This document shows, in pieces, positions 33,311-60,525 of a stretch of DNA of 64,000 bases. Position numbers and translations under genes: made by a program. This stretch comes from Candidatus Terraquivivens yellowstonensis (lineage in GTDB: Archaea > Thermoproteota > Nitrososphaeria_A > Caldarchaeales > Wolframiiraptoraceae), in contig JAKCEW010000002.1 in assembly GCA_023539445.1 (NCBI GenBank), positions 62,001 through 126,000 of the forward strand, in the 5' to 3' direction. Position 1 is the first letter of the stretch. Each line of letters starts with the position of its first letter. The notes beneath the pieces were generated by a model, which was not told the DNA's origin, ran no database searches, and saw only the letters and a program-made list of their open reading frames with translations.

Positions 33311-34549
33311 TTATGCGAGGGTCGCTATGCCTTTACAAAGTAACAGGACGGCTAGGCAAGTCGGTACCTTTACATCCTCATTGTTATAGGGTCCATACCA
33401 TTCCCCACATATGCGGATTTTTGGCATATATATTACGTGCACTTTGCACGCTTCGTCAGGCATTACAACGGCATCCACGAATGGGTTAAACTGCTCCAAA
33501 GTCTCAGGCTCAAGTCTTTTTGCTAGGAAGCCTGTCTTTCCGTTAAGTGTGTTGGCAAGCCTCAGAAGACGGTGGATATCAGTCGTAACAATTGTGTCTA
33601 TCGAACTCCTTACCTCTTCCACGGCCAACGTTATGATCGCTTTTATAACGCTGGGCTTTAGGGTCTCCCATTTAGGCGAGTCAAGCCACGATGTCAACAA
33701 TGAATCCTTAATCTGTAACAACTTATTGTACTCCTTATTCCCGATCAACTTTATCAGCTTCTCAGCGATGCCTGGCTTATGAAGGTCTTTAATGACCTCG
33801 AAAGCTCCCCTCGCCAGCCTACCCCTCCATGAACCATCCGTATACTCAAGCGTAGCTGAAGGGTAACGCCTTTTGCCTGTGGGTAATCCGTAAAGATTAA
33901 GGTCAAGACCGTTTCCGAGGATATAGTCAGTAATCTCCTTTCTCGACACTTGATCTAGCGTAAAAAGTTTTTCATCATTCACTATTACATGGAAACCTCT
34001 ATTCCCCGAGAAATTCACCGAAATCTTCGAATAGGGTATGCCGAAATCCATCTCAAGGAAGTCCAAAAGCTTGTAAACTTCCCCTTTTGCCGCCTCTATA
34101 CAGTTTTCGCAAACCCAGTCGGTACGTTTAACCTTCGTGCTGCCACAATTGTTACACTGCTCTGACCCAGGTGGTAGCATGCTTTTACAATCTTCGCATA
34201 TCGAAAAATCGTGCCTCTCTTTGCATGGAAGGTTCAGGTGATCAGCATCTATGTCAAATATAAGCTCAGCACCTAACCACACTTTTTCTTCCATGGGGGC
34301 CTGAGGGTATTGGTAATGGGCCGCCGAGTGGTACATGTGCAAAGGCGTTACCTTTTTTATTAACTCAAATAGCTCAGATGAGCTTTTTAACGATATGTGC
34401 CTTACCATGACCTTTTGTCCAAAGGTGAAATAACCAAACTCCCTCTTTTCAACCATGTGGGGCACATATACGTTCTCTGCATTTCTTGTATAATATTCGC
34501 TAAACAGAATGTGGACATATTCCGCATCCTTGTTCGTTAGGAAACTCAG
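33311..34549 (-). CDS. priS: DNA primase small (catalytic) subunit PriS
   Basis: 412 residues from CTG 34549. The catalytic Asp pair lies in ELIFDIDADHL (about residue 97-103), followed by a cysteine-rich zinc insert (CEDC...CNNCG...CENC), and FSGNRGFHV and KRLEPETLEQ follow. The nearest ordinary start, GTG 34465, would remove FSEYYTRNAENVYVPHMVEK, which aligns with the conserved N-terminal FFxxYYxxN segment of crenarchaeal PriS. Upstream of that segment the frame has no ATG/GTG/TTG. CTG 34549 has GGTGAG 5 nt before it and overlaps the upstream TGA (CTGA), so I chose it. Confidence 0.93.
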   Translation of the reverse strand: MSFLTNKDAEYVHILFSEYYTRNAENVYVPHMVEKREFGYFTFGQKVMVRHISLKSSSELFELIKKVTPLHMYHSAAHYQYPQAPMEEKVWLGAELIFDIDADHLNLPCKERHDFSICEDCKSMLPPGSEQCNNCGSTKVKRTDWVCENCIEAAKGEVYKLLDFLEMDFGIPYSKISVNFSGNRGFHVIVNDEKLFTLDQVSRKEITDYILGNGLDLNLYGLPTGKRRYPSATLEYTDGSWRGRLARGAFEVIKDLHKPGIAEKLIKLIGNKEYNKLLQIKDSLLTSWLDSPKWETLKPSVIKAIITLAVEEVRSSIDTIVTTDIHRLLRLANTLNGKTGFLAKRLEPETLEQFNPFVDAVVMPDEACKVHVIYMPKIRICGEWYGPYNNEDVKVPTCLAVLLLCKGIATLA

Positions 34550-34659
34550 GTTTTCTCACCGCGAGTCTTTATCGTGTACGTCAGCACCAAAAACAACACG
34601 AACAAAATTAGCCAGTAAATGTTTAGTCTCACTTGATCGAGGAATACTTCCAGCGACAT
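34546..34659 (-). CDS. small single-span membrane protein ORF, 37 aa
   Basis: ATG 34659 gives 37 residues with one hydrophobic helix (IYWLILFVLFLVLTYTI) and a basic C-terminus; a longer 70-residue version would start inside L34e. Its TGA overlaps the proposed CTG start of priS. The family is not recognised. The coupling and the 53-nt spacer after L34e with an AT-rich element hint that it is translated, but it could be chance. Confidence 0.4.
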   Translation of the reverse strand: MSLEVFLDQVRLNIYWLILFVLFLVLTYTIKTRGEKT

Positions 34660-34711
34660 GGTGTTCCCATAAAATGTTGTCCTAACGTAAAAGCTTTTTC
34701 CAAAATAATGG

Positions 34712-35002
34712 CTACTGGCTGACTTGTGCTTCATGTGCAGTCCATAAATCGTACGCAAAGTTCGTTAGAGCGTTCCTTAGGCAAGAGGCACAAACATTGC
34801 CTCCATAAATCCTTGACACGGTCCTCTCACTTTTGGACGTCTTTGAAGGACTTTCGACCCGGATGCCGTGCAACGGCTTGCCACATATGCCGCAACGAGG
34901 CGCCCCGGGTCTTTCATCAAAATAGTGGATAACAAGCCTCCCGCCAGGTGTTCTAACTTTCTTTCTTTTCCTGCTTCTTGTCCTGAGGGCTCTTCTCGGC
35001 AA
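34712..35002 (-). CDS. rpl34e: 50S ribosomal protein L34e
   Basis: 96 residues from TTG 35002, which gives the expected MPRRALRTRSRKRKKVRTPGG N-terminus (GTG 35011 is also in frame). Zinc site CGICGKPLHG...CASCLRNAL. Overlaps the EMC3-like gene by 50 nt, an order conserved in archaea. Confidence 0.94.
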   Translation of the reverse strand: MPRRALRTRSRKRKKVRTPGGRLVIHYFDERPGAPRCGICGKPLHGIRVESPSKTSKSERTVSRIYGGNVCASCLRNALTNFAYDLWTAHEAQVSQ

Positions 35003-35468
35003 GACCACCACCCGTCATACTTAGACCGAATGCTTTGGACAGAGGTAAACTTACTGCAAAGAACGCTAAGATATACCATCCATAAAAAGTTAACGCGCCT
35101 TCTTGACTTATAAAAGGTATAAAAAAGTCACCAGGTAAGGGGATTTCGATATCACCGAAAAACATCGCCGTAGCCCAGTATGCGCCCAGAAAAAGCGCCA
35201 TGCTAATTATTATTACCGTAAAATTCTTCTTCATGATGTCAAACTCTACCTTCTTTATGTAATCCATTCGTTTCTCTAACTTCTGAAGGGTTTTTTGGTC
35301 ACCTCGCCTTTTTGCCTTCATGAGTTCTTGCCTGAATAGGTTTGCCTCCATCATTTTTTCCATGTCTTGTTTTTTGATTATGGTTCTTCTGACAAAATTT
35401 GTTAGAGAAATTGTTGCTAAAGCTATGGCTACTATAAGCAACATAGAAAAAACGCTCGCATCCATCAT
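34953..35468 (-). CDS. EMC3/DUF106 family membrane protein insertase
   Basis: 171 residues with three membrane segments and a cytoplasmic charged helical pair (KKQDMEKMMEANLFRQELMKAKRRGD) after the first. This is the archaeal Oxa1/YidC-superfamily DUF106 layout, thought to help insert membrane proteins alongside SecY. The ATG overlaps the SecY stop by 4 nt. The adk gene usually between them is missing. Confidence 0.9.
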   Translation of the reverse strand: MMDASVFSMLLIVAIALATISLTNFVRRTIIKKQDMEKMMEANLFRQELMKAKRRGDQKTLQKLEKRMDYIKKVEFDIMKKNFTVIIISMALFLGAYWATAMFFGDIEIPLPGDFFIPFISQEGALTFYGWYILAFFAVSLPLSKAFGLSMTGGGLAEKSPQDKKQEKKES

Positions 35469-36898
35469 GTCTCACCGAGTAGCCTACCTAGTGCTGGATA
35501 CATTTCCGCAACCCTTTCCCTAACCAAGATTTGGTAATACTGATACATGATTCCTATCAGTAGGAGGAGACCGCTGCCGGTTCCGAAGGCATTAGTGTAG
35601 TCCGCGACACCTGCTATGAGTCCCACAAGTATTGCACCTAATATCGTAACCGTCGAGATGTACTTTCCTATTATTTTTTCTATAACTTCGGGGGACCTTC
35701 TGAATCCAGGAACTTGCATACCCGCGCTGACTAGTTGTTTTGCGACTTTCGAAGGACTTAGCCCCCCTATGTTTACCCAAAATTTGGCAAATAGTACACA
35801 AAAACCGATGAGCAAACCAGCGTATACGATACCTTTAACGGGGTCTTGCAACAAGCCTTCAATGGAACCGGGTGGTGTCATGTAATAGGCTAATCCACCC
35901 GTAGGCACTATTTGATCGCTTTCGGTCCTCTTGAACGTGCCCAACAAGTTCAAAAAGACATTATTCCCATCTTGGTTGTAGCTATTCCATAAAATTGATG
36001 ACAAATAATAGACGTTGCCGAATATCATGCTAGCAAATATCACAGGTATAACCGAGACGTACAGTAACTTTATTGGATACTTTGCCTTAAATCCTGAAAA
36101 CTTAGCATAGGATAACGGTATCTCGACCTCGACCGCATGGAGGTATATTATCACTAAAATTATGACGATGGTCGTCAGGAGGCCTATAAGATCCGGCATA
36201 TTCTGGGCACGCATGATTACTGGGGATAACCCCGTTCCTGAAAATATTGACTGAAAAGTCGCCAATATGACTCCCTGATAAAGCCCGTCCGAAGATACGA
36301 TCATCGGCGAGAATAACCTGATCATTATATCTTGTGTGACACCAGTTGCTATGAACAAGCTTATGCCGCTACCGAGTCCCCAACCTCTCTGTATCAACTC
36401 GTCGAGCATCATTATGATGAATGTGGCTACGATTAGTTGGATGAATATTAAAATAGCCTGTGCCGTCGTTATTGTACCAAATATTCCGCCTATGCTAAAT
36501 GCGAGTGCCTGAATGGCAGCAACCACGAGTGATAGAATCTTGCTTGCAGACGTGAAAAGTGCCCTATCTTCGGGTTTAGTCAAATCCAATTTTATTATTT
36601 CTGCTCCGACCAGTAACTGGAGAAGTATGCCTGCCGTGACTATAGGCCCAATACCGAGGGTGGTTAGAGTTCCAATTTTTTGGGCGAAGACCACGTGAAG
36701 TATGAATATGCTTTCAGTAACTTGGGTCCTTGGTATGCCGTAAAGGTACACTTCCCCCATAATGAGATATATGAGCATAGCCAGAGCTGTCCATACAAGT
36801 TTTTCAGCTAGGCCGACCCTTCTCTTCGGTTTGGCCACTTCTGGCATAAGCCGGCTTATGTTTTCGATGAGTCTTCTTGCTGCTGACAATCGCTCCAC
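35465..36898 (-). CDS. secY: preprotein translocase subunit SecY
   Basis: 477 residues, ten membrane segments. ITAGILLQLLVGAEIIKLDL, the plug region, GWGLGSGISLFIATGV and PGFRRSPEVIEKII match archaeal SecY/Sec61-alpha. Forms the secretion channel. Starts 7 nt after L15, the canonical operon order. Confidence 0.97.
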   Translation of the reverse strand: MERLSAARRLIENISRLMPEVAKPKRRVGLAEKLVWTALAMLIYLIMGEVYLYGIPRTQVTESIFILHVVFAQKIGTLTTLGIGPIVTAGILLQLLVGAEIIKLDLTKPEDRALFTSASKILSLVVAAIQALAFSIGGIFGTITTAQAILIFIQLIVATFIIMMLDELIQRGWGLGSGISLFIATGVTQDIMIRLFSPMIVSSDGLYQGVILATFQSIFSGTGLSPVIMRAQNMPDLIGLLTTIVIILVIIYLHAVEVEIPLSYAKFSGFKAKYPIKLLYVSVIPVIFASMIFGNVYYLSSILWNSYNQDGNNVFLNLLGTFKRTESDQIVPTGGLAYYMTPPGSIEGLLQDPVKGIVYAGLLIGFCVLFAKFWVNIGGLSPSKVAKQLVSAGMQVPGFRRSPEVIEKIIGKYISTVTILGAILVGLIAGVADYTNAFGTGSGLLLLIGIMYQYYQILVRERVAEMYPALGRLLGET

Positions 36899-36905
36899 GT
36901 CCGCC

Positions 36906-37391
36906 TTATCCTATTAAAGCAGTCAGTTCTTCAGGTTTTATAATTTTGCCCCCGGCATCGGATATTTTTTTACTTGCTTGTTCGGTCCATCTTTCTACGA
37001 CAACCAATAGCGGCTTATAAACGTCGCCGCCACCTAAGAGTTTTTCTATACCTATGGACTTAAGGTTGACGAGCAGCATGCTGTCCACTTTTTGCGCATT
37101 TTCGCTTTTTTCAAGCGTTTCGGCTAATTCAGAGAGCTGTTTTAGGTTGATGGCTCTGTAAACCTTCCTATTCGGTCTGAAGAATCCGTGCTTGCCGAAG
37201 TAGTCGGGCGCATACTTCAAAATCCAAGTCCACTTGTGCTTATGGCCTCCCGCCATGCCTCTCCCTCCTTTGGAGCCCGTCTTCCTATGTTGCCCTATCT
37301 GGCCCCAGCCGCACGTCCTCGAACCCCTCAACTTTCTTATCTTTCTTAATCTCGTTGGCAAAGTTCCCACCCGTTGCTTATGCTTGTTCAC
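36906..37391 (-). CDS. rpl15: 50S ribosomal protein L15
   Basis: 161 residues. RLRKIRKLRGSRTCGWGQIGQHRK and GSKGGRGMAGGHKHKWTW are the archaeal uL15 signature; the C-terminal half holds VNLKSIGIEKLLGGG. First gene of the L15-secY-EMC3-L34e-priS-GINS string. Confidence 0.96.
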   Translation of the reverse strand: MNKHKQRVGTLPTRLRKIRKLRGSRTCGWGQIGQHRKTGSKGGRGMAGGHKHKWTWILKYAPDYFGKHGFFRPNRKVYRAINLKQLSELAETLEKSENAQKVDSMLLVNLKSIGIEKLLGGGDVYKPLLVVVERWTEQASKKISDAGGKIIKPEELTALIG

Positions 37392-37410
37392 GGTCTTCTC
37401 TGACCGGGAA

Positions 37411-37425
37411 GATATATAGTTTATA
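37411..37425 (-). promoter_or_regulatory. TATA-like promoter of the L15-secY operon
   Basis: On the minus strand TATAAACTATATATC precedes ATG 37391 by about 25-30 nt. It drives the whole L15 to GINS run, since no other large gap follows. Confidence 0.55.
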
Positions 37426-37461
37426 CCCTTCGTCTACAAAAAAGGTATAAAGAGTTGGTAC

Positions 37462-39402
37462 TCAGGATGCCTGCGTCTTCTTCTTTATGTAGGGCAGAAG
37501 ACCTCCGGCCAGCAAAATTTCCTTTTGCCTCTCTATGAGGCTATATGTTGTAACGAACTCTATGCCCTTAGTCTTGTTTATGATTTTTACCGGTTCGCCC
37601 TTCCTTACGGCCTCTGCCAATTTTGGTATTTCTAATTCATCACCAACGTCTATCCTATCGTAATCCGATGGGTCCTTGAACGTCAGTGGAATTATTCCAA
37701 AATTGATCAAGTTCTCTTTATGTATTCTAGCCAGAGATTTTGCTATCACTGCTTTAACGCCTAAATATGCGGGCGCGATTGCCGCATGTTCCCTCGAAGA
37801 ACCTTGGCCGTAGTTTTCTCCGCCCACGATCACGCCGACCTTGGCATCCCTTGCCCTCTCATAAAATGTGGGGTCTATCCTGCTAAATGTGTACTTAGAG
37901 ATTTCAGGTATGTTGGATCTGAGTGGCAGAATCTTTGCGCCAGCTGGAAGTATGTCGTCGGTACTTATGTTATCACCGACCTTTATTAAAACCTTGGCAG
38001 TCAAGGATTCTGCTAAAGGTTCCTTCACTGGCACCTCCTTTATGTTCGGACCTTTTATCACCTCGACAGTCTCGGGCTTTTCTGATGGAGGAATTATCAT
38101 GTTGTCGTTTATTAAAAAGTGATCAGGTTCTTCAACATAAGTCACGTTTATGTCTGATTCTCTTGGGTCTGCGAACTCCCCTCTTAGAGCTATGTAGGTT
38201 GCGACTAGCGGGTTAGTCAAGTATACACTTGCCTCAAGTGTTCCCGACCTGCCCTTAAAGTTCCTGTTAAACGACCTGACCGATACGCCGTTATAAGGTG
38301 GTGCCTGACCCATGCCGATGCAAGGACCACACGCCACCTCAAGAATCCTTGCACCAGCCGCTATCATGTCAGCTAGCGCGCCTTCCCTAGCCAGCATCTC
38401 GTAAACCTGTCTAGACCCTGGTGAGATTGTCATGCTCACATTCGGTGCAACCGTTCTCCCCTTAAGTATCTGGGCTACGGTCTTCATCACTTGGTATGAT
38501 GAGTTTGTGCAACTTCCGATACACACTTGGTCCACCTTTATGCCCTTGAGTTCGCTTATTTTCACAACGTTGTCGGGTTGGTGCGGCTTAGCGACGTAAG
38601 GTTCCAACTCGCTTAAATTCACAGTAATTGTATCTGCATATTCTGCATCGGGGTCTGGGCTTAGCTCCCTCCACACATTTCCTCTATTCTGAGCCTCAAG
38701 GTAGTGCTTCGTCCTCATATCTGAGGGAAATATTGAGGTCGTTAAACCTAGTTCGGCTCCAAAGTTGGTGACAGTTGCCCTCTCTGTTACTGTGAGGGTC
38801 TTAACACCCGGGCCGACGTATTCAAATATTTTTCCGACACCACCCTTGACCGTAAACCTTCTCAACAATTCAAACACGATGTCCATGGCCGTAACCCAAG
38901 GTCTCTTCAGCTCGCCCTCAAGGACAACCTTGACGATTTCAGGTACCTTGAACTCGTAAGGCTCTCCTGCCATAGCTGCGGCAACCTCCAGACCGCCGAC
39001 GCCTATTGCAAGCATGCCCATGCCGCCAGCTGTCGGTGTATGGCTATCAGAACCGAGTAGCACTTGTCCAGGGGCTGCGAACCTCTCTAAATGTACTTGA
39101 TGACAGATACCATTCCCTGGCCTAGAATAGTATATACCGTACTTCGCCGCCGCCGTCCTTAGGAATACGTGGTCGTCGGCGTTTAAATTATCGATCTGGA
39201 GTATGTTGTGGTCAACATAAACTACTGCAAGAGGAACCTTTACACGCGGTACACCCATGGCCTCGAACTCTAGCATAGCCATTGTACCTGTTGCATCTTG
39301 CATCAACACTTGGTCCACTTTTATAGAAACAACCTCACCGGGCTCGGGCTTTCCGCTTACAAGATGCTCCTTTATTATCTTCTGGGTCATTGTTAGACCC
39401 AT
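37462..39402 (-). CDS. acn: aconitate hydratase
   Basis: 646 residues from ATG 39402. The three Fe-S cysteines lie in VCIGSCTNSS and VACGPCIGMGQAP; LLGSDSHTPTAGGMGMLAIGVGG and the C-terminal swivel domain GENYGQGSSREHAAIAP are present. Interconverts citrate and isocitrate; the single-chain layout argues against the two-subunit isopropylmalate and homoaconitate isomerases. It is not the aconitase-X phosphomevalonate dehydratase. The frame is open to 39429, but the TATA-like element (39434-39445) favours ATG 39402. Confidence 0.93.
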   Translation of the reverse strand: MGLTMTQKIIKEHLVSGKPEPGEVVSIKVDQVLMQDATGTMAMLEFEAMGVPRVKVPLAVVYVDHNILQIDNLNADDHVFLRTAAAKYGIYYSRPGNGICHQVHLERFAAPGQVLLGSDSHTPTAGGMGMLAIGVGGLEVAAAMAGEPYEFKVPEIVKVVLEGELKRPWVTAMDIVFELLRRFTVKGGVGKIFEYVGPGVKTLTVTERATVTNFGAELGLTTSIFPSDMRTKHYLEAQNRGNVWRELSPDPDAEYADTITVNLSELEPYVAKPHQPDNVVKISELKGIKVDQVCIGSCTNSSYQVMKTVAQILKGRTVAPNVSMTISPGSRQVYEMLAREGALADMIAAGARILEVACGPCIGMGQAPPYNGVSVRSFNRNFKGRSGTLEASVYLTNPLVATYIALRGEFADPRESDINVTYVEEPDHFLINDNMIIPPSEKPETVEVIKGPNIKEVPVKEPLAESLTAKVLIKVGDNISTDDILPAGAKILPLRSNIPEISKYTFSRIDPTFYERARDAKVGVIVGGENYGQGSSREHAAIAPAYLGVKAVIAKSLARIHKENLINFGIIPLTFKDPSDYDRIDVGDELEIPKLAEAVRKGEPVKIINKTKGIEFVTTYSLIERQKEILLAGGLLPYIKKKTQAS

Positions 39403-39433
39403 ATAGATAACCTGTTGTGTTATTTTCAAAATC

Positions 39434-39445
39434 GGATATTTAAGG
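39434..39445 (-). promoter_or_regulatory. TATA-like promoter of aconitase
   Basis: Minus-strand CCTTAAATATCC lies about 35 nt before ATG 39402. The rest of the 220-nt divergent gap to the MscS gene shows a second TATA-like stretch (CATAATTAATATAGG, 39577-39591) for the other direction and nothing else that I recognise. Confidence 0.5.
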
Positions 39446-39624
39446 TTTACCAGAGCTCTCTTGGGCCCATGGTACTAGGGGCGTAGTGTACCACTTCAAT
39501 CAGTTCAGCACCGCGGGAAAAAATTTCTGAGGATGTCAAACTAATTCTTGGCATGCTTGGTGTCCAATACGCCCGTCATAATTAATATAGGATGTGTTAG
39601 CCCGTAGTAGGTGGTTGAGGTAGA

Positions 39625-40536
39625 ATGAGCACAAAAAGCATAGCTCTGAGGATACTCATGGTTGCTATAGTGTTGGGCCTCCTAGCTGCAGTCGTGTGGC
39701 TCCTATTGAATGCTGGTATAATCCCGCCCGTCGTTTCCCTCAGCGTTGTCTACGCACTCCTAGCGGCCGCAGGTATCTTGCTGATAGTTTACAGCATAAG
39801 TGGCCCAATCCTCAAGAGCCTCCTACCTAACTACGGACGTAAAGCTTACGCGATAATGAGCCTCATTAAGATCTTTGCCTATGTAATAGCTGGCATCGTC
39901 CTTCTCACATCATTAGGGTTAAGCCCTGAGGTAGCCCTTGCAGGAGGAACATTTTCCGGACTGATAATCGGTCTGGCCGTACAGCCCGTGCTTAGCAACT
40001 TCTTCTCAGGCCTTCTAGTGTTGCTTACGGGTTATGTGAAGCCCGGAGATGATGTTAGGCTTGTGACGACTGAGATACCATACCAATGGGCATTCTTGCC
40101 CGGTTACAAGTATTTCTCGCCTGACTACGTATTCGTTGGCTATAGGGGCAGAATCATTGAAGTCGGTCTGCTTTACACTTTGATGGTGTCGGATAGCGGC
40201 GTAGAATTGAAAATCCCGAACAGGATAATATTCAATGCAACAATCGTCAATTATACGCCTGAAACTCAGCTAGAAAGGGTATTACAGGTTCGTTACGAAT
40301 TTAAGGTGGAATACGATCCAGATCTGGTTCTTGAACGGATTAGGAATGTACTAAGCGATATGGAGGAAATAGAAGATATAACGATTAATGAGCAAAGCGA
40401 TAAAGAATACTATATCGTTCAGATCCGATTCCTCACACCTGTGGGTAAGGATTGGAGGGCAATAAAGTCCGAGATATTGAAGAGGCTTATAAAAGTTCAC
40501 AGAGAACTCAAGCTTATTGAAAAAACTACAACCTGA
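39625..40536 (+). CDS. MscS-like mechanosensitive ion channel
   Basis: 303 residues, three to four membrane segments, then the pore-lining helix (ALAGGTFSGLIIGLAVQPVLSNFFSGLLVL) and a cytoplasmic beta domain (YVKPGDDVRL, GRIIEVGLLYTLMVSDSGVELKIPNRIIFNATIVNYTP). Releases solutes on osmotic downshock. The ATG has GAGGT upstream. The beta domain contains a 25-residue insert (TTEIPYQWAFLPGYKY...) relative to E. coli MscS. Confidence 0.9.
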   Translation: MSTKSIALRILMVAIVLGLLAAVVWLLLNAGIIPPVVSLSVVYALLAAAGILLIVYSISGPILKSLLPNYGRKAYAIMSLIKIFAYVIAGIVLLTSLGLSPEVALAGGTFSGLIIGLAVQPVLSNFFSGLLVLLTGYVKPGDDVRLVTTEIPYQWAFLPGYKYFSPDYVFVGYRGRIIEVGLLYTLMVSDSGVELKIPNRIIFNATIVNYTPETQLERVLQVRYEFKVEYDPDLVLERIRNVLSDMEEIEDITINEQSDKEYYIVQIRFLTPVGKDWRAIKSEILKRLIKVHRELKLIEKTTT

Positions 40537-40578
40537 TGAACTCGGGTTAAAAGATAAAAAGCACAATCCCATCATAAA

Positions 40579-41970: not shown

Positions 41971-42103
41971 CTTCCAACACTCTTAACCTATAGTTGTTCC
42001 TGTTCCTGATTCTCGGTACTGGGCTACGTCTTGGCTTGGCCTCCAGTTTCGGCGTTTGGGACCTGACCTTCCCAGCCTTAGTCACGGATCCATGGCTTGG
42101 CAT
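41936..42103 (-). CDS. rps30e: 30S ribosomal protein S30e
   Basis: 55 residues on the minus strand: starts MPSHGSVTKAGKVRSQTPKL and continues with AKPRRSPVPRIRNRNNY. The SHGSxxxAGKVRxQTPK block and the basic tail are diagnostic of eS30. ATG 42103 has GGGAG upstream, and a TATA-like AGGTATAAATGG lies about 37 nt before it. It overlaps the purB 3' end convergently. S30e is present in TACK archaea and eukaryotes and absent from most Euryarchaeota. Confidence 0.93.
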   Translation of the reverse strand: MPSHGSVTKAGKVRSQTPKLEAKPRRSPVPRIRNRNNYRLRVLEAKPSEERSFQE

Positions 42104-42134
42104 CTCAAACTCCCAAGATTCTGTACTCCTTCAT

Positions 42135-42170
42135 CCATTTATACCTTATGAGAACAGCTATATCTTAATA
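42135..42170. promoter_or_regulatory. divergent promoter region of S30e and Nop5
   Basis: Two TATA-like elements: ATTTATACC (42137-42145, serving S30e on the minus strand) and CTATATCTTAATAC (about 42158-42171, serving nop5 on the plus strand). Each lies 25-40 nt from its start codon. Together they explain the gap between the genes. Confidence 0.5.
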
Positions 42171-42194
42171 CATGAGGATTTATCATGAATTAAA

Positions 42195-43388: not shown

Positions 43389-43400
43389 AGGATCTTTTGG

Positions 43401-44114: not shown

Positions 44115-44118
44115 AAAA

Positions 44119-44775: not shown

Positions 44776-44777
44776 TT

Positions 44778-49563: not shown

Positions 49564-50100
49564 TTAACTTTTACCGGAGCTTTTTTCTAGCAGCTCCTCT
49601 ATGTATTTCCTTATTTCTTGGGGGTTGTTCTTGAGGTTGAAATAATCCGCAAACAATTGAGTGGTCCTAAGTAGAAGCGTTCTACCGGATTTTTCTGCCT
49701 CAACCAATCCCTTCTCAATTAGCTGTCTAACATGTTTATATGCCTCCTTTCCTCTGGCTGCCGCCAGAACCGCCTGACTTACCGGCTGATGGTATGCGAT
49801 GAACGACAACGTTTTGAGTAGGGCTGTGCTCAAAAGCGGTTTCTTCACGTGCTTCCTAGCTATCTCTGAATATTCAGGCGCTAGATACAAAAAGTACCTA
49901 TCACCCTCCAGTTTTTTAATCCTAAATGGATGGTTGGAGTTTTCGTACTCAGTAGATATTTCATTTATGATCTCTCTTATTGTACTTTTCGACGTTGTGC
50001 CTACAGCATTCATGAGTTTTTGCAACTCGACAGGTTTGTCAGATGCGTAAAGTAGCGACTCGATAACCGCCTTCATCCAGGCCTTTCTTTTTTCATCCAT
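49564..50100 (-). CDS. scpB: segregation and condensation protein ScpB
   Basis: 178 residues from ATG 50100 (GTG 50109 is upstream in frame). Tandem winged helices: AVIESLLYASDKPVELQKLMNAVG and LLSTALLKTLSFIAYHQPVSQAVLAAARGKEAYKHVRQLIEKGLVEAE match ScpB. Partner of SMC and ScpA in condensin; all three are adjacent. The start overlaps the ScpA stop. Confidence 0.92.
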   Translation of the reverse strand: MDEKRKAWMKAVIESLLYASDKPVELQKLMNAVGTTSKSTIREIINEISTEYENSNHPFRIKKLEGDRYFLYLAPEYSEIARKHVKKPLLSTALLKTLSFIAYHQPVSQAVLAAARGKEAYKHVRQLIEKGLVEAEKSGRTLLLRTTQLFADYFNLKNNPQEIRKYIEELLEKSSGKS

Positions 50101-50743
50101 GCACCTCACCCAGAGATATCAAGATCTTTCCATCGTCATTTTCTATTATCGTTACCATGCCCCTTGATGCAATAAATAGGAGGAGTATAAAACGTCTTAC
50201 CGCCTCTAACCTATCAACACCGCTCATGATTTCATCCAAAGTTATGGTTCCTTTGCTTTCCAGCACACCTTTTATAAAATTGTAGAACTCCTCCACCTTC
50301 TCTTCGATCTTTATGATGAAATCCTCGATGTTCAGCTGCTGTTGTTCAATATTATCTTGCTTACGCTGTGGTTGCGGCTCAGAGAGAACGCGTTTTAAGG
50401 CGTCAATCAGCTCAAGTATGGTAGTCGTCATGAACTCACCCCTTAATGGTGGAAATATCGGAGGTGGTATGAAGTATTCTTGCTTTTGTTTTATGACGGG
50501 CACCTCGTCGGCATCGAGTAGCCTCTCCGTTTTCATCCTATGCAAGGTTGCCGCAGAATATACGGCGATCCCTGAGGAAGTAAAATCAAACAATTCCTTT
50601 CCCTTTAGCACAATGGCTAAAGAGCTCAGTAACTCTCTTAAGTTAATCTCCCAAACTCTTAGCTTATCCCAGTTTGTAACGTCGAAGAGTACGCGCCACG
50701 GGGATCTAATCCATTGAATCTTTTCACCCTCTATGTCAGCCAG
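50093..50743 (-). CDS. scpA: segregation and condensation protein ScpA
   Basis: 216 residues from CTG 50743. The kleisin N-terminus (SPWRVLFDVTNWDKLRVWEINLREL...FDFTSSGIAVYSAATLHRMKTERLL) lies largely upstream of the first ordinary start, GTG 50611. The frame above it, back to a stop near 50770, has no ATG/GTG/TTG. CTG 50743 gives MADIEGEKIQWIRSPW, with GGAGG about 9 nt upstream in the SMC 3' end. The C-terminal winged helix (SRGMVTIIENDDGKILI) binds the SMC head. An alternative is +1 frameshifting at the SMC stop (UGA C), which would give an SMC-ScpA fusion. Confidence 0.88.
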   Translation of the reverse strand: MADIEGEKIQWIRSPWRVLFDVTNWDKLRVWEINLRELLSSLAIVLKGKELFDFTSSGIAVYSAATLHRMKTERLLDADEVPVIKQKQEYFIPPPIFPPLRGEFMTTTILELIDALKRVLSEPQPQRKQDNIEQQQLNIEDFIIKIEEKVEEFYNFIKGVLESKGTITLDEIMSGVDRLEAVRRFILLLFIASRGMVTIIENDDGKILISLGEVHG

Positions 50744-53700
50744 CCTCGACCCCCTCCAGTTTTGTCCTAATTATCTTTGATTCACCCTTGTCCATATAAA
50801 CGCCGATGAGCTGATCGGCTTTCTCGGCCAGTACATCTTTAAGGCTTATAATTATTATCTGCGTCTTTTCTGACATCTCCTTCAGCAACTCGGCCAACGC
50901 AACAGTATAGGCTACGTCCATATGGGCATCTATTTCATCAAAAATGTAAAAGTCAGCAGGCGTGAGGCCTTGCAGTGCCATCAGGAGCGATACGGCCGCG
51001 ACAGACCTCTCACCCCCGCTAACGCTTCTCAAGGAACGCTGGGGCTTTCCAGGGAACTGTACTACAACCTCAACACCCGAATCACTCGGTTTTGTTTCAT
51101 CAACAAGCCTAAGCCAAGCCACTCCCTTCGTGAGTCTATTAAAGTATGCCGCAAACTTTTCGGAAACCTTTTCCATCGTTGTGAAGAAAGCTCTTAATTT
51201 TTCTCCTTCGACCATCTTTATAAAGTTGATTATCTCTTGTCTTTCCAACTCCAACTCGCTTATTCTGACGGACCTGAGTTTGTAATTTCCAATCAAAGCC
51301 TCGTATTGCTCCGAAGCCAGCTGATTCACAAATGAGAGCTCATCTCTTTCCGCCTCTAATGCTGCAAGTATCTGCTCTCTAAGCGTGGGCTCGAGTGCCA
51401 ACAACTCTGTCGCATCAACATCGCCAAGCTCAGACAGTTTCTCCATCACCATTTGAAGCTGAGATTCTATCTTTACACTTTCAAGCCTAGCTTCTTGCTG
51501 CTCTGACCACAGTATCTTTAATTTTTCAGATATCTTGTTTTCCTCCTCAGCTTGCATAGATATTGCCCGTCTTAATTCATCCCTGATCTTAATCAGCTCC
51601 TTATGTCTTGTTGAGAGACTTTCAATCTCTTGGTCAAGCTTACGGAGCTCGTTTTCTAATGAAGTTAAACTAGCTTCGAGCTCAGCTCTCAGCTTTTTCT
51701 CCTCCTCCACCTTCAGTTTACTATTCTCCAAAGAGCAGTTAAGTGATTCGACCTCCGACCTGTACCGGTTTATCAGGTTTAGGATTTTCTTTTTCGAATC
51801 CTCTAAACTTTTAAGAAAGATGGATTTCTCCGCCAACTGTACCTTCAACTCAGTGTATTTCGTCTCTAAGATTTTTAGCTTCGACGAAGCCAACTCGAAC
51901 TCTTTCTCTATCTTTAGTTTTAGCTCCTCATCGACCGGCTCGTTGCCAACAATTTCAGGCAGTCTTTCTTTAAGGTTCTCTTCCTCTTTGACGAGGGCCT
52001 CCATACGTTCGTCTATCTTCTTCTCCCTAAACATTAGTTGAGAAAGAGTCTCTTCCAATAATTTACGCTCGGCATTAAGCGATTTAATGTCCGCATTCAG
52101 AGAAGAAAGCTTTGTCTGTTGTTTCTGGATCTCGCTTTTAACAAACTCTACCCTTTTTACTAGTTCATCACGCCTTAACCTTATTTCATTGAACTTAAGT
52201 TTTGCGTTTTCAAGGTAGGATTCTAGGTCTTCCAGCTCAGCACGTAGCGTTTTTGTCCTACCTACCTCATTACCAACAACTTTAACGAAACCGCCGGGAT
52301 AGCAAACTATCCCACTATCCAGAATTACCAGTTTGCCGTTTACTGCCTTTTTGCAAGCTTCCTCGAAATTGTTGGAAAATTCTACGTTATTTCTAACCCA
52401 TGCTTGAAATTTTTCTAAATTATTGCGATTCGTTTCGCCTAGATTACCGTTTAATGTCAACAACTTACACTCAAAATCAAGAGACGCAAAAATTTCAGAT
52501 AGTAACCGGGTCACGGCATGATTGTCCGTTACGATTGCGCTTGCCCATTCATTAAGAGCTATGCCAAGCTTTTCGTTGAGCTCAGGTAAAGATTTGACAA
52601 AACTGCCCAATGTTCCGACAACACCGTCCACAAATTTATCAGCCAATAATTTAGCAAAATCTTCAAACTTCTTTGACTCTTCATCTTCAGGCTGGGTCGC
52701 TAACCGTATCTTTAGCTCTGTTATAAGGGCCTCTGTCTTGCTGATAACGTCATCTGCATGTGTCAATAGCTCGGAGTAACGCCCAATCAGGGACATGTAG
52801 CTGCTTAACTCTTGGTTAAGCTTTGTCACCTCGTCTTCTGTTACGCGCACCTCGGAAAGTAGGTTTTCAAGTTCTTTGTCAATTTCAGCGATTTTATTTT
52901 TAATCGTTGAAATCTCTCCACATATGTCCTCCTTTTCTTTCGTTAGTTGTTCTTTACTGCTCTTGATGTTCTCGAGCCTTAAGTATGCTTCGGACCGTGC
53001 CCTTTCCTCCTTAATCTTTGATAACTTGGCTTCTTCTAACTTCTTCTCAAGCTCTTTAACAACGCTCCTCAGTCCGTTTACTTCATCAGACATTTTTGCA
53101 ACATCTTTCTCTAGCTGTAGCTTATCTCGCAAGCATTCCTCAATCTTCAGCTCAAGCTCAGTAAGCTCTTGTCCAGAAAGCGACATAGCCGACTCGAGCT
53201 CGGCAATCTTTTGTTGCAGATGCACAGATTCCTTCTCCAAAATTCCTACACGGTTTTCAGAATCTCTTATATCGAGTTTTAACTTCATTATCTTCTCAAA
53301 CGTTTCCTGTCGCTTTTTTACGAACTCTGACAATTTCTGTTCTATTTCAGATATTTCGTTTTCCGTTGCTTGCAAATTGGATTTAAGCTCCGCAAGCTTC
53401 GCTGATACTTCCTGTTTTGCCCCTTCTAATGCACGAACCTGCTCGGTTATGCTAGAAATTTTTGATTGTACGGTCTTAAGGGTCTCGGAGATATTTTCCA
53501 TCTCCAGTCTATACTGAAGGGTTTTGAGTTTGGCGATTTCTGCCTCTACAGCCTTCCTCCTGAGATACTGGTTCCTCTCTTTCTCTAGCTGCTTAACCCT
53601 TGTTCTAACTTCAGCTGTGCTAGCCTTAGCAACTTCCAAGTTCTTATCGGCCAGTGCAAGTTGCTCTTCCGCTTCAGCTTTTTTCCTATTGTACTCCGCT

Positions 53701-54200: not shown

Positions 54201-54399
54201 CTCGCACGCCCTACGGTTTCTTTAACCTTTTTGATTGAATGGGCAATATTTGTTTATACTGCCAGAGGAGGGGGTGCATATCACAGAACCACAATCACGT
54301 CTTACTAATATAATATGCTGCTCCAGCAAGTCTGAGTTTTAAAGGTTATATTAGCCGTTTTGCTCTTTCCGCCTAGGTTAAAGGGTAGCTGGTGTATAA

Positions 54400-55467
54400 A
54401 TGGAGAGAATAAAGCGTCTCCTAGACCTGATGGAGGGGAAGACCTTCAGCGCGTACTTGTTGACGTTACCTGAAAATCTTTACTATTTTATAGGGTTTAA
54501 GGGAGATGGCGCGGCCGTAATAATGTCCGACGGCTCCGTCAGACTTTATACATTACCTCTTTACTACGAGTCAGCCGTTCAACAGGCTATACAGGGTGTT
54601 GAGGTGATTAAAACAAAGAGCTATGACATGTTCAAAGAAGAGCTCGCGGATGAGTTGGGTAAGTTGGTTGGAGACATCGGGTTCGATTACATGGATGCCG
54701 AATCTTTTTGGAAGCTATCATCAAAGCTGAGGTTTCTACACTTAATTCCATCATCCGATCTTGTTTGGAAGTTAAGGTCCATAAAAGACGAAAAGGAACT
54801 TGAGAAAATAACGAAAGCAGCAACAATATCTGATGTGGGTTTGGAGATAGCTTCGGACTTAATATCTCCGGGTGTTACTGAGCAAGATGTGAAGGCAGAA
54901 CTAACAAAGGAGTTGCTAAGGTGCGGTGCGGACAGAGTCGCATTTGATATAATAGTGGCCTCTGGTGCGAAGTCATCTTTGCCTCATGGCGGTCCGGGCA
55001 ATAGACAGTTTCAGGCCGGCGACGTTGTTGTTATAGATTTGGGCGCATCGGTAGGTGAATATTCGGCAGATGTAACGAGAACGTTTTTTGTAGGGGATAA
55101 AGTGCAGGACAAAATTGAGAAGATTTACAAATTGGTCGAGGAGGCTAAAAATTTAGCTGAAGAACATATGATGGCATGGGTCTCTGCCTCGTCTATTGAT
55201 AGGGTTGCGAGACAGTTTATAGAAAATGCTGGGTTTGCTGAGTATTTTGTCCATAGCTTGGGGCACGGCATAGGGTTAAACGTTCATGAGCCGCCAAGAA
55301 TATCGCCCAATAGCAAAGACTTGCTTGCTGAAAACATGGTCGTGACATGCGAGCCCGGCGTGTATATCCCAGGACAATATGGTATAAGACTTGAAGATAC
55401 TTTGGTAATCAAGAAGGATAGTGCTGTACGATTATCTAAGGCACCGTTCGATCCCTATACGCATTAA
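54400..55467 (+). CDS. pepQ: M24 family metallopeptidase (Xaa-Pro dipeptidase type)
   Basis: 355 residues. N-terminal creatinase-like domain, then the pita-bread fold with metal ligands in VIDLGASVGEYSADVTRTFF, HSLGHGIGLNVHEPP, VTCEPGVYIPGQYGIRLEDT. Cleaves Xaa-Pro dipeptides or N-terminal residues. The 200-nt gap before it holds AT-rich promoter-like stretches for this gene and for smc. Overlaps uppS by 4 nt, convergent. Confidence 0.93.
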   Translation: MERIKRLLDLMEGKTFSAYLLTLPENLYYFIGFKGDGAAVIMSDGSVRLYTLPLYYESAVQQAIQGVEVIKTKSYDMFKEELADELGKLVGDIGFDYMDAESFWKLSSKLRFLHLIPSSDLVWKLRSIKDEKELEKITKAATISDVGLEIASDLISPGVTEQDVKAELTKELLRCGADRVAFDIIVASGAKSSLPHGGPGNRQFQAGDVVVIDLGASVGEYSADVTRTFFVGDKVQDKIEKIYKLVEEAKNLAEEHMMAWVSASSIDRVARQFIENAGFAEYFVHSLGHGIGLNVHEPPRISPNSKDLLAENMVVTCEPGVYIPGQYGIRLEDTLVIKKDSAVRLSKAPFDPYTH

Positions 55468-56258
55468 ACTCCGAATCTACGATTACGTTGTTGATACGTT
55501 CTGATGCTTCGTAGAAAATCTATCTTCCTGAATTCTGGCCAGAATACGTCGAGAAAAATGAGTTCACTGTATGCGGACTGCCATAACAAAAAATTGCTTA
55601 TTCTCTCTTCACCAGACGTCCTGATTATCAAGTCGGGATCAGAGTTTGGTATGCCGGATGTGTACAAATTTGACTCGATGATTTTTTCATCTATTTCATC
55701 GATGGAAATTCTTCCTTCCTTCACCATAAGGGCTATCCTTTTTGCGGCATCAACTATTTCTGCCCTTCCGCCATAGGCTACTGCAATATTCAGAAAATGA
55801 TTGTTGTACTTTTTGGTCACTTCTTCTAATCTCTCAAGTGCCCTTCTGACATCATCTGGTATGAGTTGCCTTCTACCGATTATCGTGACCTTCACACGGT
55901 TGTTGTGTATCCTCGGGTCATTTACAAGCCTTTCCGCACGTTCCTTTATCAACTTGAATATTTCTGATAGCTCGTCTTGACTTCTCTTCAAGTTTTCAGT
56001 AGAAAGAACGTAAAGTGTTACTGTCTGGATCTTTAGTTCAATGCACCACTCAAGAACTTTCTCTGCGACATCTGCTCCAATTTTGTGCCCAAAAGCATAA
56101 TCAAACCCTTTACTTTTAGCCCAGCGCCTATTTCCGTCCAAGATTAGCGCTACGTGCTTTGGCATGGGGCCATTTTTAATACTATTCATCAACCACAATT
56201 CATATAGCCAGTAAGCACCAAACAGCTTCAGCAATCTCCGAATCATACGGCCCCTCAC
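55464..56258 (-). CDS. uppS: cis-prenyltransferase (undecaprenyl/dolichyl diphosphate synthase type)
   Basis: 264 residues. ALILDGNRRWAKSKGFDYAFGHKIGAD (catalytic Asp), TLYVLSTENLKRS, LNIAVAYGGRAEI and PDLIIRTSGEERISNFLLWQSAYSE are the five conserved regions. Makes the long-chain lipid carrier for glycosylation from IPP, linking to the isoprenoid genes. Overlaps DUF373 by 4 nt. Confidence 0.95.
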   Translation of the reverse strand: MRGRMIRRLLKLFGAYWLYELWLMNSIKNGPMPKHVALILDGNRRWAKSKGFDYAFGHKIGADVAEKVLEWCIELKIQTVTLYVLSTENLKRSQDELSEIFKLIKERAERLVNDPRIHNNRVKVTIIGRRQLIPDDVRRALERLEEVTKKYNNHFLNIAVAYGGRAEIVDAAKRIALMVKEGRISIDEIDEKIIESNLYTSGIPNSDPDLIIRTSGEERISNFLLWQSAYSELIFLDVFWPEFRKIDFLRSIRTYQQRNRRFGV

Positions 56259-57433
56259 TTTGTTTTCTTAAAGTATGGCGCATATGCTTTTCTTAAGTAC
56301 CTTGTAACTATGAATGTTATCGTTAGAGCTGGTATGCCTAAAAGTCCTATCGTAAGTAGCATTATTACATGAGGACCAAACGTCATGCCAGAGGTGTCCA
56401 CAAGTACTAATCCGACCCTTTTCAAGAATGCCCATAACCATATAAATGTGACGGTTGCTTGAACAGTTCTCCAGAATTTCATGTTCTTCAAAATTATGTA
56501 ATATATGGCATATGTAAGCACAATGACTAACAGGCTTACAAAAATTAGGTCTATACCCCCAAGCACGAACTGGCCTGCAAGTGTGGGCAACATCCCTAAC
56601 CAGTAATAAAAGTCTTCAGAGAGTGATGGTAGTTGTACATTTTTTGGTAACGCTGAAGACGCGCCAATGTAACCCGAATAAATACCTATGAGTAAAATAA
56701 TCAACGATGAAATTACGCCAAATATTCTCAGCTGTACCAAAGGATGAGAAGATATGAACTTCGACAGCACTCTGAACTTATTTGCTATCGAAGTGTCAAT
56801 CCCAAAACCTCTGATGAATAACGCTATACCTAAAATCACTAAGAGTATTGGTAGGTTCATCAAACCAAGAGCATAGAGGATTCCTATGAGTGTTAGCAAC
56901 ACTCCTGGTATTCCAAGGATAATTTTAGAATATCTGGTATCGAATATCGCCATCTTTAGGTACCTTCCAAGTAGGAGCCATGTATGTTCGATACTTTCGC
57001 TTTGTTTAACTATAACCCTCTTGACAGAAATTATGGGCAACCTTGACGAAATGATTGGAAAGACGAGTTGGTCAGTAACGCCGTCACTAACGAAGATGCA
57101 GGCAGACGATGGAATTTTTTTTAAAACTTCATCCAACTCACGTCTTATCTTTTCATCGGACCAATAACCGCTTTCTTCGCTACCGGCTATGGTTGCAATC
57201 TCGACGTTCTCTTTTCCATACTTGCTGACAAGCTCATCGTATAGTTTAATGGCACCAAACATGGCATTCGCATCGGATTCCTCGGGGTCTGCCAAGGCAA
57301 GGCTCTTTGCTGCCTCTAGATTGCTCTCTTTTCCCACGATGGGCGTTTTTATACCAGTTTTCTTACCAATATCATTGTCCCTATCGACTACAAGAATGAG
57401 GAGCTTCTCTTGCTTTTTTTCCGAATTTTCCAT
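56255..57433 (-). CDS. DUF373 family membrane protein
   Basis: 392 residues. Soluble N-terminal domain LILVVDRDNDIGKKTGIKTPIVG...LALADPEESDANAMFGAIKLYDEL, the DUF373 signature, then about seven hydrophobic segments from residue 170. Function unknown. Precedes uppS with overlapping codons, so a membrane-lipid role is possible but unproven. Confidence 0.9.
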   Translation of the reverse strand: MENSEKKQEKLLILVVDRDNDIGKKTGIKTPIVGKESNLEAAKSLALADPEESDANAMFGAIKLYDELVSKYGKENVEIATIAGSEESGYWSDEKIRRELDEVLKKIPSSACIFVSDGVTDQLVFPIISSRLPIISVKRVIVKQSESIEHTWLLLGRYLKMAIFDTRYSKIILGIPGVLLTLIGILYALGLMNLPILLVILGIALFIRGFGIDTSIANKFRVLSKFISSHPLVQLRIFGVISSLIILLIGIYSGYIGASSALPKNVQLPSLSEDFYYWLGMLPTLAGQFVLGGIDLIFVSLLVIVLTYAIYYIILKNMKFWRTVQATVTFIWLWAFLKRVGLVLVDTSGMTFGPHVIMLLTIGLLGIPALTITFIVTRYLRKAYAPYFKKTK

Positions 57434-57523
57434 GCTATTTTTCCGTTACAATTCTTTCCACTTAGTCTAATATAACGTTAACCATTCTAAAAATATTGGA
57501 ATGCATTATCCGTTCTTTGCATT

Positions 57524-58363
57524 CTAAAGTTTAAACTCCTCATCATTTTCAAGCAAAAGTTTCAATTCTTGGAATGTTACGCTCTTACCCTTTAATAGTT
57601 TCTGCTTCGCCTCAGAAATAACGCGCTTTTTAGCCTCTTCTTCCTTCCGTCTCGCGGTATCGTCCATCGCCGTCTTTAATTGTTCCATCAACAATGTCAA
57701 CTTAGATTGGAATAATATTCGTTCAGCCTCGACCCTGCTAAGTTTCTCCTTTATTTCCATGTAATCTTTGCGCCTTTCCTCGTACTTTTTCCTCAGATCC
57801 TCATATTCTTCTTTCATTTTGCTAATTTCTTCGTTAATATTTTTCAACATGTTTTTTGTTGTGCTCAGTTCGTCTCCTATCGACTTAATTTTCTCATTCT
57901 GAGCATTAATGCTCGCAATGAGGTTTTCTCGTTTTTTAATCAGTATTGCAGCCTCCTCTAACTTTTTGCACTCAAGGAAAAGTCTTTTTTCCTCGCTTGG
58001 TTTTAGTATCGAAGTATGTATTGTCCACTCTATGTTTTTGATTCTCTCATTTATTTCATCTACGCTAACATCGCTCTTTGGATATCTTGCATCGTTTTCG
58101 ATAGCTTTCAACTGTTTGATAAGTTCACCCTTCGAAGCGTAGCATGCATTCAATTCGGACTTCAGCTTCTTATAATCTTCCAAAAGTTTCCTTTTTTCAT
58201 TCACCTTTTCTTGAAGCCTCTGCCTCGCCTCTTTTTTCTGTTCGCGAAGGAAATCCAGTTCTTTTGATACCTCGTTGAGTGTGGCCTCGATTTGCTTTAT
58301 TACACTACTTAACTCCTTGACTTTCTCCTTAAGTTGCTCAACTTCGGTGCTTTCGTATGCCAT
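57524..58363 (-). CDS. coiled-coil protein, COG1340-like
   Basis: 279 residues, almost wholly coiled coil (heptad-rich Lys/Glu/Leu). The central NERIKNIEWTIHTSILKPSEEKRLFLECKKLEE fits the archaeal COG1340 pattern. No enzyme domain seen. Own promoter: TATA-like GGCTTATATAATC at 58391-58403, about 30 nt before the ATG. Confidence 0.75.
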   Translation of the reverse strand: MAYESTEVEQLKEKVKELSSVIKQIEATLNEVSKELDFLREQKKEARQRLQEKVNEKRKLLEDYKKLKSELNACYASKGELIKQLKAIENDARYPKSDVSVDEINERIKNIEWTIHTSILKPSEEKRLFLECKKLEEAAILIKKRENLIASINAQNEKIKSIGDELSTTKNMLKNINEEISKMKEEYEDLRKKYEERRKDYMEIKEKLSRVEAERILFQSKLTLLMEQLKTAMDDTARRKEEEAKKRVISEAKQKLLKGKSVTFQELKLLLENDEEFKL

Positions 58364-58390
58364 CGTTCTCTCCCTTTTGAAAGTTTTTAG

Positions 58391-58403
58391 GATTATATAA
58401 GCC
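58391..58403 (-). promoter_or_regulatory. TATA-like promoter of coiled-coil gene
   Basis: Minus-strand GGCTTATATAATC, centred about 32 nt upstream of ATG 58363. A clear isolated TATA box in the 107-nt gap after the GPN GTPase. Confidence 0.55.
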
Positions 58404-58470
58404 TCTACGTCTTGACATTTATGTGAATATCTAGGACAGTCGTTACAGAGTCTGTTGAATACAAAACCTT

Positions 58471-59232
58471 CTACCTAAGCTCTAACTCACCCTCGCTAAA
58501 TATCCTTGTGAGAGCACCATGAAGTTCAACAAGGCCACTCATATTAAGGGCCGACACAGGTATTATGGGAACAAAACTACTCACGTCAAATACGGCTTTT
58601 GCAACATCCCTTGCGAGTAGCATTTGAGCCCCTTTAAGTCTATTCTCCAAATCTATTAAGAATGCCTCATCCGACTCAGCCCATCTGAGTATCCTGTTTA
58701 TGTATTTCTTTGGTACCGCGTCAATTTTTGATAATGCCATAATGAGAGGCATGCCGAAGCTTAAATATATCGAGACGGAGAGGAATATGCTTGCGGCGAA
58801 GTTTTTCGGGTTGACGCAAAACATTGGGTCTAGAAGGAATAGCATCGCCTTGGAACCGTCAGTAAGGTTCTTAGCGATTATTTTTCCCTCTTTTCTGAAC
58901 GCGAAGAGTTCAAGCTGACCCGGCGTATCGACGAGCACGTAATCAACATTGAATGAATTAACTTCTTCTCTTAGTTCCTCTATATGTCTAGCAACCTCTC
59001 TTACTGATGCTATCAGTGCCGCATTCGGTCCAAGCCTTCGTGTTACCATTATCCTTTCGTAGTCGACCATCTCTCTTACATCCACATCGGGCTCGTAGGG
59101 TAAGACTGTTGCTGCAGGGTCTAGATTAACCGTTATGGTTGACTGCTCTTGGTCACGAAGCCACTCGTTAAATGACCCGGTCAGGGTCGATTTGCCAGAT
59201 CCTGCAGTTCCTGTTATGAATAAAGTGTACAT
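58471..59232 (-). CDS. GPN-loop GTPase
   Basis: 253 residues. P-loop ITGTAGSGKST, NLDPAATVLPYEPDVDVRE, the Gly-Pro-Asn motif in RLGPNAALI, DTPGQLELF and the ALSKIDAV motif. Eukaryotic relatives help assemble RNA polymerase; the archaeal role is open. ATG, own AT-rich promoter upstream. Confidence 0.94.
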   Translation of the reverse strand: MYTLFITGTAGSGKSTLTGSFNEWLRDQEQSTITVNLDPAATVLPYEPDVDVREMVDYERIMVTRRLGPNAALIASVREVARHIEELREEVNSFNVDYVLVDTPGQLELFAFRKEGKIIAKNLTDGSKAMLFLLDPMFCVNPKNFAASIFLSVSIYLSFGMPLIMALSKIDAVPKKYINRILRWAESDEAFLIDLENRLKGAQMLLARDVAKAVFDVSSFVPIIPVSALNMSGLVELHGALTRIFSEGELELR

Positions 59233-59292
59233 GGTTCCACTCTAAATCGTTTATTTTACTTCAACTTATATGCATAACTTGACTCTAGGAGT

Positions 59293-60525
59293 TTATTCGG
59301 CTCTAAGCGCTTGGACTGGATCCAGCCTTGCGGCCCTTAAGGCCGGGTATATGCCGGAGAGAAGGCCTACGACGACAGCAAACAGAAAACTATTGGCTAG
59401 TATCGTCGGCGTTACGTTTGGTTGGTATATCACCGGATTACCGCTCGTTCCAATTAAGAAAGACGAAAACATTCCTCCAAGCGACAGCGCTAACAAGCTT
59501 CCTAAAACCATGCCAAGTAAACCTCCTATCACGCCTATTAATGTTGACTCCATTAGAAAAATCTTTGCAACGTCCTTTTGAGAAAAGCCCAAGGCCCTAA
59601 GGATGCCTATTTCCTTTGTCCTCTCCATAATAGTCATGAACATAGTGTTCATGATACCCACACCAGCGACCACTAGTGCTATGCTGGCTACCACAGAGAG
59701 GAATATCGTGAAGTTATTGAGAATTATCTTCACCTGCTTTACTATCGTTAAGGGGCTAATCAGGTCCGCATCTTTTCCATAAATGTTATTCAAGGCCTCG
59801 AGGGTGGGCTCAACGAAATCCGTGGATTCCACAATCACTACTATGCTCGGATAGCTCGTAGACTTGAAAATACTGCGTGCCTGCGGTATGGTTATCATGA
59901 TGCTTTTATCAACATCGAGATACGGCGTTGAACCAAACTTCTTGTATATCGCTCCGACGGTAAAAGACTTCGTGACACGTTGCCCCTCAACCGTAAGTTC
60001 TAACGTTACGGTGCTGTAGAGAGGTATGCTCTTCCCAGACTCTCCGGGCGGGAATGCGACGTCGTATCCTATGGCTATCATTGCCATATCATTCGGCGAT
60101 AATTCTTCGCCCTGATAGATTTCTAAATCGGGCAATACTTGGTACGTTAGGGTTGGATCCAGACCTATTATGGAGACTGTTTGCTCTAAGCCACCACCTG
60201 TAAGCTTGCCCCGAGAAAGATAGAATGGGCTGACAGCCTTGACCCCCGGTAAGTTTGAGAGCAGCATGACGTCAGTATCGGTCAGCTTTAGGCTCTCTCT
60301 TTGGCCAGCCCGAACAGATAGTGTTCCGGAGGGGGTTATGAATATGTTGTTGACGCCTATTTTCGAGAGAACGTTATCTACCAAGACATTTAGGCCCTCA
60401 GTGTTCGATACTAGGGATATTATTAGTGCAGTTCCTATCATTATGCCTACAACGGTCAGAATAGTCCTTACCCTACGAGTTCTTAAGCCGCCGAAGGCGT
60501 ACCAGACTGTATCGACGATTTTCGT
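59293..60525 (-). CDS. MacB/FtsX-type ABC transporter permease
   Basis: 410 residues from ACG 60525. N-terminal helix, large extracytoplasmic domain, then three C-terminal helices ending in GLLSGIYPALRAARLDPVQALR, the MacB permease signature. The first ATG (60441) falls inside helix 1; upstream in frame KIVDTVWYAFGGLRTRRVRTILTVVG matches the conserved FtsX-family start, yet no ATG/GTG/TTG exists. The ACG has a strong GGGGGGAG six nt upstream, so initiation there is proposed. Overlaps the COG1361 gene by 43 nt. Confidence 0.88.
   Translation of the reverse strand, partial: TKIVDTVWYAFGGLRTRRVRTILTVVGIMIGTALIISLVSNTEGLNVLVDNVLSKIGVNNIFITPSGTLSVRAGQRESLKLTDTDVMLLSNLPGVKAVSPFYLSRGKLTGGGLEQTVSIIGLDPTLTYQVLPDLEIYQGEELSPNDMAMIAIGYDVAFPPGESGKSIPLYSTVTLELTVEGQRVTKSFTVGAIYKKFGSTPYLDVDKSIMITIPQARSIFKSTSYPSIVVIVESTDFVEPTLEALNNIYGKDADLISPLTIVKQVKIILNNFTIFLSVVASIALVVAGVGIMNTMFMTIMERTKEIGILRALGFSQKDVAKIFLMESTLIGVIGGLLGMVLGSLLALSLGGMFSSFLIGTSGNPVIYQPNVTPTILANSFLFAVVVGLLSGIYPALRAARLDPVQALRAE

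Follow-up and report, generated by a model that had tools for sequence, protein, structure and literature searches.

CTG and ACG as probable start codons of a conserved set of genes in Candidatus Terraquivivens and part of its archaeal family

The window, i.e., the whole stretch of 64,000 nucleotides that was analysed, comes from a metagenome-assembled genome of the hot-spring archaeon Candidatus Terraquivivens (Caldarchaeales, Aigarchaeota), which comprises 1.16 Mb in 35 contigs and was assigned to the genus by the relatives of its PriS protein, with 77-85% identity to the named Candidatus Terraquivivens genomes. Four genes of the window, which encode the DNA primase small subunit (priS), a condensin subunit (scpA), a MacB-type permease and an MFS exporter, were examined on both strands, with stop-to-stop frames, and the comparison covered the window genome, five further Terraquivivens species and 16 other genomes of the family (n = 22). 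A previous sequence-only reading of this DNA had noted that the conserved N-termini of these four proteins are not preceded by any ATG, GTG or TTG, and the re-examination of the frames confirmed this observation, given that the first ordinary start codons are all found downstream.

The priS gene (33311-34549, minus strand) has a frame that opens directly after a TGA with the sequence GAA AAC CTG AGT TTC, in which the CTG at 34549-34547 is the candidate start, and its first ordinary codon is a GTG at protein codon 29, beyond the conserved first helix. The context TGA xxx xxx CTG AGY TTY is found in all six members of the genus, each of which thus has CTG in this column and an in-frame TGA two codons upstream, and the same column reads ATG AGC TTC in most other genera. 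The NCBIfam PriS models match the product from residue 7. A Shine-Dalgarno-like GGTGA (34556-34560, minus strand) lies 6 nt before the CTG, and its pairing with the 3' end of the 16S rRNA (GGATCACCTCCTA), against which all of the Shine-Dalgarno (SD) duplex energies were computed, ranges from -7.4 to -10.9 kcal/mol in the six species. A 37-codon open reading frame, resembling a small membrane protein (34546-34659, minus strand), ends in a TGA that overlaps the priS start as CTGA, and this stop-start context is kept across the genus.

In the scpA-like gene (50093-50743, minus strand), the candidate start is the CTG at 50743-50741, which overlaps the end of the SMC gene (stop TGA at 50738-50736), and the first ordinary codon is the GTG at 50611. 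The start column holds CTG in five of the six Terraquivivens genomes and TTG in the sixth, and outside the genus it holds CTG in two genomes of another genus (G008 and G011) and TTG or ATG in two others (G007 and G006). Upstream of it there is a GGAGGGG (50751-50757, minus strand), with duplex energies of -9.3 to -11.4 kcal/mol. The CTGA overlap that had been proposed for two genes stands for priS only, with its recognisable upstream frame; in scpA, the overlap is CTGGCTGA rather than the four-base form. An ATA was also considered as the scpA start, as the T. ruidianensis genome (G003) has ATG in that column, and was rejected because the other members of the genus have GTA.

The gene of the MacB/FtsX-type ABC permease (59293-60525, minus strand) has an ACG at 60525-60523, which is conserved in all six members of the genus, and its first ordinary codon is the ATG at 60441. 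In other genera, this column holds GTG (G007, G008 and G022) or TTG (G006 and G010), and three of the six Terraquivivens genomes (G001, G004 and G005) present an in-frame stop 6-7 codons upstream of the ACG. The Shine-Dalgarno-like sequence AGGGGGGAGA (60531-60540, minus strand) gives duplex energies of -10.5 to -11.8 kcal/mol. Sites of this kind, which had been reported for three genes, are present upstream of priS, scpA and the permease in all six species.

The MFS exporter (21736-23202, plus strand) is the weakest of the four cases in the window. Its best start is the CTG at 21736-21738, where the orthologue of another genome (G005), which is 87% identical, has TTG; the MFS_1 domain begins at residue 20, the first ordinary codon is an ATG at 21808, within the first membrane helix, and the SD pairing is weak (-3.5 kcal/mol). 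The gene had been included in the set with its start at 21772 (21772-23202), and a CTG start is indeed likely, but the TTG of the orthologue indicates that it is probably the CTG at 21736, from which 21772 falls 12 codons inside the frame.

Outside the window, the strongest case of a near-cognate start is the ribosomal protein eS31 (S27ae), identified by matches to PF01599 and NF001669, whose start column holds CTG in 12 of the 22 family genomes (all six Terraquivivens and six genomes of two further genera) and GTG or TTG in seven, with a GGAGG-type site upstream of the start codon. All six Terraquivivens genomes also have CTG at the start of the FBP aldolase/phosphatase and of a sugar nucleotidyltransferase, in which it coincides precisely with the Met of MKAIILAGG and residue 2 corresponds to position 1 of the NTP_transferase profile. 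In MoaA, the CTG coincides with profile position 1, and a CTG is conserved in two genomes in the RIO1 kinase, an asparagine-synthase-like protein and a PP-loop protein, and in two species in a homologue of the E2 ubiquitin-conjugating enzyme (UQ_con; L075, 7411-7914, minus strand).

In other genes, the start column differs between the window genome and T. ruidianensis, with ACG and ATG, respectively, in NAC, and, between two species, ATG/ACG in TatC and TTG/CTG in eS27, which are single T-C transitions. The trpA gene, with ACG in the window genome and CTG in T. ruidianensis, does not differ by such a transition, and may represent two separate departures from ordinary starts. Near trpA, a trpE-like gene (L091, 8385-9781, plus strand) has no ATG, GTG or TTG until codon 93 and no evident CTG or ACG, and its counterpart in T. 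ruidianensis has a TTG near codon 24. The homologue of methionyl-tRNA synthetase (L093, 3408-5090, minus strand) is also without any ordinary start: in both species, its frame continues after GGAGGGTGT as GCC CTA AGG ATT CTG, and no evident start stands where one would be expected. The presence of GTG in the +1 frame points to frameshifting or to an unusual start.

Altogether, priS, scpA, the MacB permease, eS31, the FBP aldolase/phosphatase and the nucleotidyltransferase have no ordinary start in a usable frame, and their candidate codons are one mismatch away from AUG. One explanation would be the loss of ordinary start codons through sequencing or assembly errors, given that the genomes are metagenome-assembled and that of the window is divided into contigs. 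The identical odd codon is found, however, at the identical column in each of six genomes that were assembled separately, and the flanking codons show synonymous changes, which refutes such errors for these six genes, as the earlier argument against four independent errors had anticipated, and leaves the explanation as a whole with a negligible probability, although errors may still account for the MFS exporter.

Another possibility is that the proteins begin at the downstream ATG, GTG or TTG codons, which are present in most genomes, and that the homology upstream of them is untranslated. Such starts would nevertheless cut conserved N-termini, removing the first helix of PriS, some 30 residues of eS31 or more, approximately 28 residues of the MacB permease, including most of its first membrane helix, and the CX3CX2C motif of MoaA in T. 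ruidianensis. In addition, constraint at the level of the codons extends up to the CTG or ACG and then ends, and initiation downstream is thus very unlikely.

The open frames could also be joined to an upstream exon or reading frame with a normal start through introns, frameshifts or stop read-through, and two protein genes, EF-2 and Cbf5, do look split by short introns in the Terraquivivens genomes that were compared. On the other hand, the relatives of priS, eS31, scpA and the MacB permease have their ATG, GTG or TTG in the exact column of the CTG or ACG, and this shared start column means that the genes lack no part of their N-terminus. In most Terraquivivens orthologues, in-frame stops occur 1 to 8 codons upstream of the CTG or ACG, and these vary between species (TAA, TAG and TGA), which also argues against this explanation and makes it extremely improbable. 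In the two genomes compared, an in-frame stop occurs at a conserved motif of Cbf5 (window 23354-24405, minus strand) and of EF-2 (L078, around 17320-17356), flanked by short inverted repeats (CCTAAGG...CCTTAGG in EF-2), and these stops probably mark short bulge-helix-bulge introns.

The conservation of the CTG starts was set against that of ordinary leucine codons in priS, the MacB permease, scpA and eS31 of the six genomes, where 100 invariant Leu columns were found, 52 of which use CTG in one or more genomes. A single one of these 52 has CTG in all six genomes, against four of the five CTG starts, so that the CTG starts are held, whereas ordinary Leu codons are not. The equivalent control for the ACG of the permease is weaker, as ACG is kept throughout the six genomes in 3 of the 29 ordinary Thr columns that contain it, and this case therefore leans more on the GTG/TTG in the matching column and on the upstream stops. 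The SD pairing at 14 near-cognate starts has a median of -9.5 kcal/mol, compared with -4.7 at ATG (p = 3e-5), -6.5 at TTG (p = 0.002) and -3.5 at interior CTG (p = 1e-7). Some of the candidates outside the window were recognised with the SD in view, and for these the comparison is partly circular and serves as supporting rather than independent evidence.

Editing of the mRNA from C to U would turn CUG into UUG and ACG into AUG, and initiation would then take place at ordinary codons, as in plant plastids, where ACG starts are edited. CTG and ACG are exactly the two odd starts that a single change of this type makes canonical. Against this, an excess of odd C is not observed at otherwise constant positions outside the start codons in four genes of the six genomes, where non-synonymous cases with an odd C and with an odd T are equally numerous (8 and 8), and editing is not needed to account for the choice of CUG and ACG, which are among the strongest near-cognate codons elsewhere. 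Editing can thus be given little credence.

The well-supported near-cognate starts of the window genome number about 14 genes, in the order of 1-2%, which is not an unbiased census, and the window is rich in them (4 of 68 orthologous genes). For a wider count, 959 orthologous frames were compared between the window genome (G000) and T. ruidianensis (G003, 1.22 Mb). In this pair, 717 genes share ordinary starts, with ATG/ATG in 403, TTG/TTG in 179 and GTG/GTG in 72, TTG being a common start codon in both genomes. A start-codon count by expectation-maximisation on the 959 pairs was dropped, as it overfitted rare codon pairs. When one extra start codon was allowed at a time, the gains were 16 for ACG, 15 for TGG, 14 for ATA, 11 each for AAA and AGG, and 10 for CTG, and the automatic census of the two genomes thus did not cleanly separate CTG and ACG from other codons; given the similar gains of TGG, ATA, AAA and AGG, an unbiased count requires more than two genomes. 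Several high-scoring frames were set aside as antisense frames, rRNA frames or split genes (EF-2 and Cbf5).

The codons that are kept in Terraquivivens, CTG in priS and scpA and ACG in the permease, stand in the column in which the relatives of other genera have ATG, GTG or TTG, as eS31 also shows, and the interpretation of these starts as near-cognate initiation is thus supported by the sequences. In all likelihood, Terraquivivens and some other members of its family begin the translation of a minority of their genes at CUG or ACG, with the assistance of the SD and an ordinary initiator tRNA. The SD would position the 30S subunit at the near-cognate codon, where the initiator tRNA, with its CAU anticodon, would pair in the P site with a single mismatch at the first or second position, and the protein would still begin with Met. 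Actual initiation at these codons and Met as the first residue are what we infer from the sequences, as we do any effect of the CTG and ACG starts on the level of expression. The CUG starts seem to have arisen from UUG, and ACG from AUG, through T-to-C transitions, and such codons may be tolerated where the SD pairing is strong.

As regards the initiator tRNA and the initiation factors, which had been indicated as points to inspect, the tRNA is ordinary, with the CAU anticodon, A1-U72 and three G-C pairs in the anticodon stem, and aIF1, aIF1A and aIF2-gamma were found in the genome. In aIF1, a factor known to destabilise complexes formed on codons other than AUG (PMC6237735), the QGDHR motif is preserved, whereas GGA/GGG replaces the GGT in front of it. 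The aIF2-gamma of the window (15249-16493, plus strand) has the P-loop VDNGKTT instead of the usual VDHGKTT.

It is also probable, with less certainty, that CUG and ACG are stable and selectively kept starts for a defined set of genes in this archaeal family, including eS31 and DNA primase, in which a strong SD offsets the mismatch. If this is true, the lineage would have a durably relaxed choice of start codons, perhaps tuning the output of these genes. As Prodigal considers ATG, GTG and TTG only (PMC2848648), genes with near-cognate starts would be truncated or missed. Gene finders limited to these codons would struggle even to detect the eS31 gene. The combination of natural CUG/ACG starts with the eukaryote-like initiation apparatus of archaea would provide a direct test of the role of aIF1 and aIF2 in start-codon fidelity, and the conserved set would also test whether poor start codons persist for the tuning of expression.

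Near-cognate initiation at CUG and ACG is known in eukaryotes, and rare non-AUG starts, such as the AUU of infC, are known in bacteria. The starts described here are similar in that they are single-mismatch codons, with CUG and ACG favoured, and differ in that they occur in an archaeal family, are accompanied by an SD and serve conserved, probably essential genes that have no other possible start. In archaea, the start codons named in a review are AUG, GUG and UUG only (PMC7531240); the Terraquivivens genes share with this ordinary initiation the lead of the SD, the standard initiator tRNA, aIF1, aIF1A and aIF2, and the GTG or TTG in the columns of their relatives, but their own start column holds a conserved CTG or ACG. 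No report of CTG or ACG starts in the Terraquivivens group was found in the part of the literature that was covered. The closest archaeal parallel in the comparison is HVO_1510 of Haloferax volcanii, for which peptides were detected upstream of the first ordinary start and an in-frame CTG was proposed (PMC8305020). There too, the conserved N-terminus begins before the first ordinary start, but the case concerns one gene only and is ambiguous, an out-of-frame ATG being the alternative, whereas the Terraquivivens case comprises several genes, with exact orthologous columns, close in-frame upstream stops and conservation in six of six genomes. Near-cognate starts as such are known, and what appears to be new, within the literature that was covered, is a conserved set of CTG and ACG starts, ACG included, across an archaeal family.
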